From the NCBI RefSeq assembly GCF_000153825.1, contig NZ_DS022299.1, positions 1,204,869 through 1,268,868 of the forward strand: 64,000 nt of DNA, written 5' to 3'. Shown here one piece after another: positions 7,157-9,308 of this stretch (its first letter is position 1; the number at the start of each line of letters is the position of its first letter). The stretch is from Synechococcus sp. RS9916. Lineage in GTDB: Bacteria; Cyanobacteriota; Cyanobacteriia; PCC-6307; Cyanobiaceae. The notes under the pieces were generated by a model. That model was given only the letters and a program-made list of their open reading frames with translations, was not told where the DNA came from and made no database searches. The position numbers and the translations under genes are program-made.

Positions 7157-7714
7157 TCAGCAACCCAGGCTGTCGCGGGTGGCCATGCCGGTGATGGGAT
7201 TCACCCCCTCCGCGTCGCGACACAGCCGCACCACATCATCCCGATCGAGCAGAGCATCGCTGAAATCCGCCCCTTCAATGCTGGCTCCAGCAAAACTGCT
7301 GCCGGAGGCAATCACCCCATTTAGAAGAGCATTGGTGAGATTGGTGCCGCTGAAATCTGCTCGATCCATCAAGGAGTCAGAGAGATCTGCATCGCTGAAA
7401 TCTGCCTCAGCAAAGGCCCCTTGCGTGAAGATCGCCCCGTGCAGATCGGCACCCGAGAAGTCAGCCCCCCGGCCCACAGCCCCGGCGAAGGAGGTGTTGG
7501 TCAGCACTTGACCATGAAAGTCGCCATCGCTCTGGTTCGTGAGCGTGTAGTCCACCCGTTCCTGAAACAGAGCGCGGTCCTGCAAACCAACACCCGCTGA
7601 AGTGTCCAAGGCCACCACAGGAGCCGCCAGACACCAACTGCCCAACAGCAGAGCGCACACTGCTGAAGCCCACCATGGGGACGCAAGAACAACCTGCGGA
7701 GAACGGGACGCCAT
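7157..7714 (-). CDS. exported pentapeptide-repeat protein
   Basis: 185 aa with an N-terminal signal sequence: a hydrophobic stretch WWASAVCALLLGSWCLAAP, then a cleavage-like AVAL region. At least a dozen A(D/N)(L/F)xx-type pentapeptide repeats fill residues 65-150 (examples ADFSGADLHGA and ADFSDADLSD) and should fold as a right-handed quadrilateral beta-helix. The C-terminus holds two cysteines (LCRDAEG, DSLGC). Exported proteins of this kind are often thylakoid-lumenal in cyanobacteria. Function unknown. It is convergent with the FAD dehydrogenase, with 7 bp between the stops. Confidence 0.8.
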   Translation of the reverse strand: MASRSPQVVLASPWWASAVCALLLGSWCLAAPVVALDTSAGVGLQDRALFQERVDYTLTNQSDGDFHGQVLTNTSFAGAVGRGADFSGADLHGAIFTQGAFAEADFSDADLSDSLMDRADFSGTNLTNALLNGVIASGSSFAGASIEGADFSDALLDRDDVVRLCRDAEGVNPITGMATRDSLGC

Positions 7715-7826
7715 GGCGACGGAGACTCGACTGCCCTTACTTTGGCGGGCCCTGGGATTGGATGGCGCGGATTAGGAACTGGCCCAAGCGATGAAGGGGC
7801 AATTCCCCGGCCTGGCTAATTTTTTC

Positions 7827-7917
7827 TTGTGAGGAGTTGAACTCCTCTGTGGAGTGGAAACAAGGCAACACGTCCACACGAGTTCACGAAAAGCCCTGCC
7901 TTCGGCGGGGCTTTTTT
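7827..7917 (+). ncRNA. Yfr2-family small RNA
   Basis: Three hairpins in a row: GAGGAGT/ACTCCTC (7831-7847); TGTGGA/TCCACA enclosing a loop with the diagnostic GGAAACA (about 7849-7877); and a factor-independent terminator with stem AGCCC..GGGCT and a T run at 7912-7917. Conserved GGAAACA in a loop, a length of about 90 nt and this architecture define the cyanobacterial Yfr2 (Cyano-1) family. A TAATTT box just upstream (about 7818) could be the -10 element. The 5' end carries GTGAGGAG, complementary to the RNA on the opposite strand at 7944-8016. A short open frame on the minus strand here is a shadow. Confidence 0.85.
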
Positions 7918-7943
7918 GTTGGCATCAATTCCTCCCGACCCAC

Positions 7944-8016
7944 AAAAAAGGGGCCTAGCGAGGCCCCTCGGGTGGTGTGAGGAGATCAACTTCGTGTGAG
8001 GAGAGTTGATCCACCC
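7944..8016 (-). ncRNA. Yfr1-like small RNA or folC 3' UTR RNA
   Basis: Reading leftwards from about 8016: a 7 bp stem GATCAAC/GTTGATC (8005-8011 with 7984-7990) whose loop holds TCTCCTCACAC, then a second, mostly unpaired TCTCCTCACAC (7975-7985), then terminator stem GGGGCCT/AGGCCCC and a T run (7944-7967). The unpaired CTCCTCAC core followed by a terminator hairpin is the hallmark of Yfr1. Here the core is duplicated. It lies 50 bp after the folC stop, so it could be an independent sRNA or be processed from the folC transcript. It converges on Yfr2. Confidence 0.6.
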
Positions 8017-8066
8017 CAGTGCTAGCGCGGCCGCTCGACCTTTGGGGCAGCATTCACATCGAGTCA

Positions 8067-9308
8067 TCAAGGCGATGGCTGCAGACAGCCGCTCGCCAAC
8101 AGGTCACCAAGCAGATACAACGATCCGGCAATCACTGGCGTCGCAGCGGGCCAGCCTTGACGCTCCAGCTGCTCCAACACCCGAATGACGGGCAGACCAG
8201 CGTCATCATCCGCTGTTGCGGGCAGCTCAAACAGCTGCTTGGCCCAAGCAAGATTCTCGTTCAAGAGCATGGCCCTGGTCCAGCTGTGGTGACCGGGCAC
8301 GGGAACAATCCAAGCCTGATCCTGGGGCTCTAGCAGGGTCTGCAGCATGGCTGGCGCCTGCTTGTGAGCCTGAATCGCCAAGATCCAAGTGAGCCCCTGT
8401 GCTGCATGGGGCCAATGGCTGCGCTCTTGCCGGAGGGCCTCAGCAGCAGGGGGGTTGTGGGCACCATCGAGCAACACGGTGTGTTGCTGCCACTTCATGC
8501 GCTGCAAGCGTCCTGGCCAATGCGTGGAGGCCAAACCGGCACGGATGCTGCCGCCATCGACCGGCCAACCCATGGCCTGAATCCGCTCCAGCACAGCTTT
8601 CGCCACGGCTGCATTGCTGCGTTGACAAACGCCTTCGAGGCCCAAAACCCAATCGCTGCTGAGCGGCTCGACCCAACACAATTCAGCCTCCATCGCAGCC
8701 GCACGCTCCGCAAGCACGGCCGCCACCTCAGGGGCCTGAGGGGCACTGATCACTACAGCACCTGGTTGGATCGCCGCAGCCTTCTCACCAGCCACCGCGG
8801 CCAAAGTGCCACCCAGATGTTCACAGTGATCGAGGCCAATCGAGGCCACGGCCAGCAAGGGCCTGCAGGGGTGGGCGGTCGTGGCATCGAGACGCCCGCC
8901 GAGGCCGGCCTCCAGCACCAGCCACTCCACTTGTTCAGCAGCACAGTGCACCAGTGCTGCCGTGATCAGCAGCTCGAACGGCGTGAGTCGCTCGCGAAGC
9001 GCCAACGGCTGAAGCGCCTCGAGCCGCTCCCGCAACGCGTCCGAAGAAATCGCGCAGTGATCAACCCGAATCCGTTCGGTCCAGTCCACCAGATGAGGGG
9101 AGGTGGTCAGTCCGGCACGGATTCCTGAAGCCACAAGGCCACTGTGAATGAAGCTCGCGATCGAACCCTTGCCATTGGTGCCCACCACCTGCACAGCAGG
9201 CACCGAGCCACAGGGATGCCTGAGGGCATCCAGGGCCCGAATCATCCGATCGAGAGAGAGATCCATGCCCCGTTGGTCAAACGGGGGCAGCAGATCACTG
9301 AAGCTCAC
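8067..9308 (-). CDS. folC: bifunctional folylpolyglutamate/dihydrofolate synthase
   Basis: Mur-ligase-family enzyme, 413 aa, joining 7,8-dihydropteroate with L-Glu and/or adding glutamates to folates. Seen: P-loop VGTNGKGSI near residue 43, TTSPHL, the VLEAGLGGRLDATT block, and LDGAHNPPA in the central domain, followed by the C-terminal Mur-ligase domain. Its ATG overlaps the argD stop by 4 bp, so it is translated from the same message. A small terminator-bearing RNA follows its stop. Confidence 0.93.
   Translation of the reverse strand: MSFSDLLPPFDQRGMDLSLDRMIRALDALRHPCGSVPAVQVVGTNGKGSIASFIHSGLVASGIRAGLTTSPHLVDWTERIRVDHCAISSDALRERLEALQPLALRERLTPFELLITAALVHCAAEQVEWLVLEAGLGGRLDATTAHPCRPLLAVASIGLDHCEHLGGTLAAVAGEKAAAIQPGAVVISAPQAPEVAAVLAERAAAMEAELCWVEPLSSDWVLGLEGVCQRSNAAVAKAVLERIQAMGWPVDGGSIRAGLASTHWPGRLQRMKWQQHTVLLDGAHNPPAAEALRQERSHWPHAAQGLTWILAIQAHKQAPAMLQTLLEPQDQAWIVPVPGHHSWTRAMLLNENLAWAKQLFELPATADDDAGLPVIRVLEQLERQGWPAATPVIAGSLYLLGDLLASGCLQPSP

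Follow-up and report, generated by a model that had tools for sequence, protein, structure and literature searches.

We found that the spacer between a pentapeptide-repeat protein gene and folC in Synechococcus sp. RS9916 holds two small RNA genes on opposite strands: a member of the Yfr2 (Cyano-1) family and, facing it, a predicted small RNA gene of marine Synechococcus that, as judged from its sequence, contains the known pairing motif of Yfr1 twice. Yfr1 and Yfr2 rank with the most widely distributed small RNAs of cyanobacteria, and how their mutual activity is set is still being worked out. Most genomes of the genus contain one to five of these two-core partner genes, mostly in the intergenic region of a Yfr2. 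Valency, dosage and gene order differ between related strains, which makes these loci a natural test of RNA–RNA titration.

All coordinates refer to the window, the whole 64,000-nt stretch of DNA that was analyzed. Its spacer of about 350 bp (7715–8066) is flanked by the pentapeptide-repeat gene (7157–7714, minus strand; PF00805, 73.2 bits) and by folC (8067–9308, minus strand; TIGR01499, 248.9 bits), the latter lying upstream of the doubled-core RNA and on the same strand; the 190 bp given as the intergenic region in the initial annotation correspond to the extent of the two RNAs. Its description of two terminator-ended RNAs facing each other was borne out, with a terminator scan of 7690–8150 returning two sites, one per RNA (shuffle mean 0.6). 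The rightward RNA is indeed a Yfr2, matched at 7823–7889 (+) by Rfam RF01701 in a covariance search (54.2 bits; cut-off 41). Its gene, with inferred ends at 7829–7916 (+), runs from GTGAGGAG to an intrinsic terminator at 7889–7916 (+; terminator scan and fold), and is preceded by a TAATTT −10-like box read by eye at 7817–7822. The 5′ motif GTGAGGAG (7829–7836, +) is the complement of the cores in the facing RNA. In the predicted fold of the window copy, this motif is largely hidden in a hairpin (mean unpaired probability 0.40); the published prediction has the first 8–13 nt of Yfr2 single-stranded (PMC2662882). The refolding of Yfr2 on pairing, as claimed in the initial annotation, would be cheap: freeing the motif is predicted to cost only 0.7 kcal/mol at the window locus, and nothing in strain UW105. 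The mean unpaired probability of the motif was below 0.5 in 38 of 104 distinct Yfr2 sequences, and the motif was absent at three further loci. The idea that Yfr2 contains a conserved bistable switch was rejected, because the motif-hiding hairpin is inconsistent among relatives and the motif is predicted to be free in UW105.

The leftward gene is placed at 7944–8012 (−), with an inferred start and a predicted transcript of about 69 nt. It carries the core, CTCCTCAC, in the two settings that had been described for it. Core 1 (7996–8003, −) lies mostly in the loop of a hairpin with an 8-bp stem (GATCAACT / AGTTGATC; 7984–8011, −), a Yfr10-like presentation, and core 2 (7977–7984, −) is predicted to be unpaired in the linker except for its first bases, its first C closing the stem, a Yfr1-like presentation. 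The linker leads to an intrinsic terminator at 7944–7969 (−; terminator scan), and the segment 7942–8012 (−) folds with a z score of −4.1, more stably than 200 of 200 shuffles. With a transcription start slightly farther upstream, by a few bases, core 2 may be covered by an outer helix (95-nt fold; also at locus L029). A candidate −10 box, TAGCAC, was read by eye at 8019–8024 (−), and the promoter scan returned no site for the doubled-core RNA at the window locus. The bare octamer is not rare, with four occurrences in the window against 3.07 expected; the non-random feature is not this count, but the position of three of the four within 175 bp together with the conservation of the arrangement in relatives.

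The stem that corresponds to the core 1 hairpin covaries among relatives. In a set of 18 distinct sequences, from which the window locus was left out, a 5-bp stem was paired in 96.7% of 90 cells, and 30 cells were changed on both sides; no shuffle out of 500, and no slid version of the stem, attained the covariation score of 0.758. Two further measures do not favor the stem: two-sided changes occurred in four of the five pairs, a count that 178 of 500 shuffles equaled or exceeded (mean 3.2), and the number of further pair types was 4 against a shuffled mean of 8.0. A covariance model built from the same 18 sequences, R2, which thus did not include the window sequence, gave the window locus the top rank in the window (E 0.00018) and, at E 0.1, matched nothing else in the whole window genome (E 0.0075 for the locus). 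At E 0.1, R2 matched in 25 of 31 genomes of the genus; strain UW140 (G156), which carries the doubled-core RNA by sequence, was missed. Another model, R1, recognized nothing but the terminator and was discarded.

To describe the neighborhood of Yfr2 across the genus, we used 111 Yfr2 loci found at E 0.01 or better in the 31 genomes, 99 of them above the model cut-off. A neighbor was defined by an exact TCCTCAC on the opposite strand, 40–350 nt upstream or 70–350 nt downstream, with a T-run within 63 nt; these distance limits were fixed after a first look at the data and applied equally to the control. A lack of conservation of the doubled core in relatives had been named beforehand as one outcome that would refute the annotation, and this outcome was not obtained: by this rule, 27 of the 111 loci have an opposite-strand neighbor with at least two cores and a terminator, 12 have one core and 72 none, with 0 of 111 in the same-strand control. 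The loci above the cut-off alone gave 27, 12 and 60, and 0 of 99 in the control. A search by pattern alone, regardless of Yfr2, returned 22 doubled cores in 16 members of the genus, 14 of them no more than 450 nt from a Yfr2, a zone that makes up about 0.14% of the DNA. R2 returned 62 matches of at least 23 bits from 21 of the 31 genomes, 43 of them within 450 nt of a Yfr2 against 0.09 expected; this count is biased, because R2 was trained on Yfr2-adjacent RNAs, a bias from which the pattern search with its 14 of 22 is free. The remaining R2 matches are solitary or adjoin a Yfr2 unreported by the model. Genomes with more Yfr2 copies tend to have more copies of the doubled-core RNA (rho 0.68 over 24 good genomes, kinship ignored and UW140 scored by sequence), and no doubled-core RNA of at least 23 bits was found in 9 of the 31 genomes (UW140 counted as present by sequence).

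The convergent arrangement described for the window locus was confirmed there but is not the rule, as divergent pairs make up 34 of the 39 partnered loci and convergent pairs only five (the window locus, the second Yfr2 of the window genome, UW105, UW140 and G258). In the 34 divergent pairs, 95–120 nt separate the nearest core from a position just inside Yfr2. In seven of these pairs, the inverted repeat TCAGT-N6-ACTGA lies where the start regions face away from each other, between them (e.g., G222:C1, about 785420–785490, L024), and some others have GTGGCACTGTGCCAC-like elements in this place; either element is perhaps a shared regulator site. The other convergent partner RNA of the window genome (L006, about 1354–1429) has a linker core and no loop core, and both cores are present in the similar RNA of G258. 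Seven doubled-core RNAs with equal model scores are found on the same strand as the nearest Yfr2 and 3–9 kb away from it (G253, G257, G256, G252, G261, G264 and G251; e.g., L179, L180 and L181), and no Yfr2 remnant was found beside the three that were inspected. Two further ones, L025 (G181) and L141 (G193), have no detectable Yfr2 beside them; a similar copy in G258 is convergent with Yfr2. A glutamine-II riboswitch is located at L031, 321–380 (−), about 1.1 kb from a doubled-core RNA.

Among 400 genomes of the family searched with R2 at E 1e-4, 19 had a match, all of them in the genus, and none of 369 outside it did; this search used stricter filters, at which the window genome and UW105 were missed as well. 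At 21 Yfr2 loci in eight genomes of a sister genus, no exact TCCTCACA was found on either strand within up to 1.5 kb on each side, other than the antisense of Yfr2 itself. Six genomes of a small-genome genus, which we took as Prochlorococcus, have a single-core Yfr10 about 140–160 nt upstream of Yfr2 and on the same strand at 6 of 10 Yfr2 loci, and none of these 10 loci has a doubled core. A pattern scan of named genomes returned 42 stretches: 13 in genomes titled Synechococcus, three in bins under the names of other groups, and 26 that, inspected by eye, proved to be of low complexity or to lack a hairpin and terminator. The three bins, titled Phycisphaerae, Gammaproteobacteria and Crocinitomicaceae (L186, L187 and L201), hold the Synechococcus doubled-core RNA, L187 and L201 together with a Yfr2; the contigs concerned (PAFA01000044.1, NYVG01000056.1 and PACT01000044.1) are therefore probably misbinned Synechococcus DNA. 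Viral contigs gave three pattern matches, none with a hairpin and terminator by eye, and among the 20 of 60 matches listed for phage records, 14–19% of the query was covered, always on the Yfr2 terminator.

Pairing in trans between the complementary cores, as proposed at the outset, is predicted for the window pair at −11.2 kcal/mol. This value drops to −5.7 when the linker core is mutated and to −3.3 when both cores are, and stays at −11.2 when the loop core is mutated. Over 34 adjacent pairs, the predicted median is −11.35 kcal/mol, or −4.2 with both cores mutated, and a mutated loop core lowers the predicted stability of the dimer in just two of the 34, the window locus not being one of them. 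Energy alone is weak evidence here, as 6 of 200 shuffled partners pair as strongly. When two Yfr2 molecules are modeled together with the doubled-core RNA, the best complex has each of them bound by one core and the stem opened (−18.9); the energy changes to −15.9 with the loop core mutated and to −10.9 with the linker core or both cores mutated. Two Yfr2 molecules alone give −10.2, so that self-pairing rivals the trio and makes up the remainder in the mutated trio. The canonical Yfr1 is predicted to bind the window Yfr2 more strongly than the doubled-core RNA does (−15.8 versus −11.2). A test for cognate specificity toward the adjacent Yfr2 found none: sampled non-adjacent pairs are predicted to bind equally well (median −11.5 versus −11.35 kcal/mol). 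The doubled-core RNA is therefore read as a trans partner of the whole Yfr2 pool, and the word "local" in the earlier suggestion of a local sponge is doubtful, given these energies and the doubled-core RNAs that have no Yfr2 nearby.

We consider it fairly probable that the leftward gene specifies a lineage-specific, Yfr10-like small RNA that acts in trans on Yfr2 by mutual titration. Transcribed from its own putative promoter, this RNA would present two Yfr1-type cores, CUCCUCAC, one placed in a loop and the other in the linker that leads to the terminator; in the cell, these cores would pair with their complement, GUGAGGAG, at the 5′ end of Yfr2 RNAs, and each RNA would thereby titrate the other. 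With its two cores, a single molecule may bind two molecules of Yfr2, provided that both cores are used. The expected effect would be to set the level of free Yfr2 and thereby, presumably, the activity of Yfr1 and its targets, the direction being part of the model. The anatomy, the conservation, the covarying stem and the linkage to Yfr2 are observed. The recurrence of the pair across the genus suggests that the two RNAs neutralize each other, and we infer the mutual titration by analogy with Yfr1, Yfr10 and Yfr2 of Prochlorococcus MED4. In that strain, Yfr2 pulls down Yfr1 and Yfr10, RNase E cleavage of Yfr2 is abolished by either of them, and Yfr2 lifts the repression of a reporter by Yfr1 in Escherichia coli (PMC6778093); a gel shift of Yfr1 with Yfr2 is described for Nostoc (PMC6974561). 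More tentatively, one marine Synechococcus genus may have evolved a bivalent anti-Yfr2 RNA that combines both core presentations, can hold two Yfr2 molecules and has spread with Yfr2 as divergent or convergent cassettes that keep the dosage of the antagonists balanced.

It is rather unlikely that the doubled-core RNA is foremost an mRNA regulator in the manner of Yfr1 and Yfr10, with cores that bind GAGGAG-containing ribosome binding sites and an adjoining Yfr2 that serves as antagonist, not as target. The solitary doubled-core RNAs, namely the seven distant copies and those of G181 and G193, are consistent with such a role, as are the 206 and 253 mRNAs pulled down by MED4 Yfr1 and Yfr10, respectively (PMC6778093). 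A perfect GTGAGGAG is also found 4–10 nt before an ATG ten times in the window genome and the reversed pattern once. Against this, just one of the ten matches opens a reading frame longer than 51 amino acids (112), and the others look unlike gene starts; this objection bears on perfect pairing ahead of ATG starts only, among the various kinds of target site (imperfect pairing, other start codons and intragenic sites included).

Titration of Yfr2 also has to be weighed against neutral and accidental origins of the element, on which the loci of UW105 and UW140 bear. UW105 and UW140 are syntenic with the window, as a check on gene order confirmed: the pentapeptide gene, Yfr2, the facing RNA and folC follow one another in the same order. 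Yfr2 is 91% (UW105) and 92% (UW140) identical to the window copy, compared with 43–44% in its neighboring spacers, and the facing RNA (7944–8012) is 91% and 90% identical; the stretch that separates the two RNAs reaches 43%, and the start of the pentapeptide gene 58% in both strains. On the folC side, the 14 nt at 8013–8026, which hold the candidate −10 box, are 86% and 93% identical, the 40 nt upstream of them (8027–8066) 55% and 58%, and the last 324 bp of folC 61% and 60%. We regard it as very unlikely that Yfr2 and its neighbor are merely a cassette that multiplies by duplication and has kept the second core without a selected function. Copy numbers range from none to five per genome (at least 23 bits), clustered copies occur, and the loop core departs from CTCCTCAC in 8 of the 36 rows compared, the linker core in 3 of 36, all of which would suit such a cassette; the covarying stem speaks against it, as do the 90–91% identity of the RNA at the window locus versus 55–61% just upstream and in folC. 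That the element is nothing but the 3′ end and terminator of the folC mRNA, with the motif as a by-product, is highly improbable: it shares the strand of folC and starts 54 nt past its stop codon, but similar two-core hairpins stand beside Yfr2 at many other loci, and the stretch with the candidate box is conserved and the folC-proximal spacer is not, which speaks for a small gene under a promoter of its own, though the promoter scan was negative. A processed RNA from the folC 3′ UTR is a possible identity of the leftward RNA.

The comparison with known small RNAs places the element closer to Yfr10 than to Yfr1. The initial annotation had called the leftward RNA Yfr1-like, which proved to be the wrong family: RF01116 scores it at 13 bits, far below the cut-off of 38, and standard models fall short altogether, as no other Rfam family reaches its own cut-off on this RNA. 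The window genome has a single Yfr1 match above the cut-off, of 68.5 bits, located elsewhere between reading frames identified by eye as guaB and trxA, the place of the Yfr1 gene in most homologs (PMC6778093). The leftward RNA shares with Yfr1 the CUCCUCAC motif in an unpaired linker between the 5′ hairpin and the terminator, and differs from it in its score, in its second core within a loop and in its place, which adjoins folC and not guaB–trxA.

The published Yfr10 offers a better comparison (PMC6778093, PMC2518516). Yfr10 of Prochlorococcus, like Yfr12 and Yfr18, presents the Yfr1 motif in the loop of a hairpin and adjoins Yfr2 genes (PMC2518516); it co-purifies with Yfr2 in the pull-down and was verified in Synechococcus WH8102 (PMC6778093). 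The leftward RNA likewise has the motif in a loop atop a stem (core 1, 7996–8003) and is predicted to pair with Yfr2; it adjoins a Yfr2-family gene, though convergently, and by eye it matches the published Yfr10 11-mer, ACUCCUCACAC, at 10 of 11 positions, with U in place of the first A. This likeness concerns motif presentation and gene position as judged against Prochlorococcus Yfr10. A doubled-core RNA or a convergent or divergent Yfr2 pair was not found in the accessible parts of the literature on Yfr1, Yfr2, Yfr10 and marine Synechococcus RNAs (including PMC2190773, PMC7368042 and PMC5069720). The adjacency of Yfr10 and Yfr2 and the titration of Yfr2 with Yfr1 and Yfr10 are already known from Prochlorococcus; relative to these accessible parts, the two cores and the opposite-strand arrangement are new. 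Prochlorococcus Yfr10 has a single core and lies in tandem upstream of Yfr2 on the same strand, whereas the doubled-core RNA of marine Synechococcus has two cores and is convergent with Yfr2, as in the window, or divergent from it, and in its predicted fold it joins both known presentations of the motif, in a loop as in Yfr10 and in a linker as in Yfr1.
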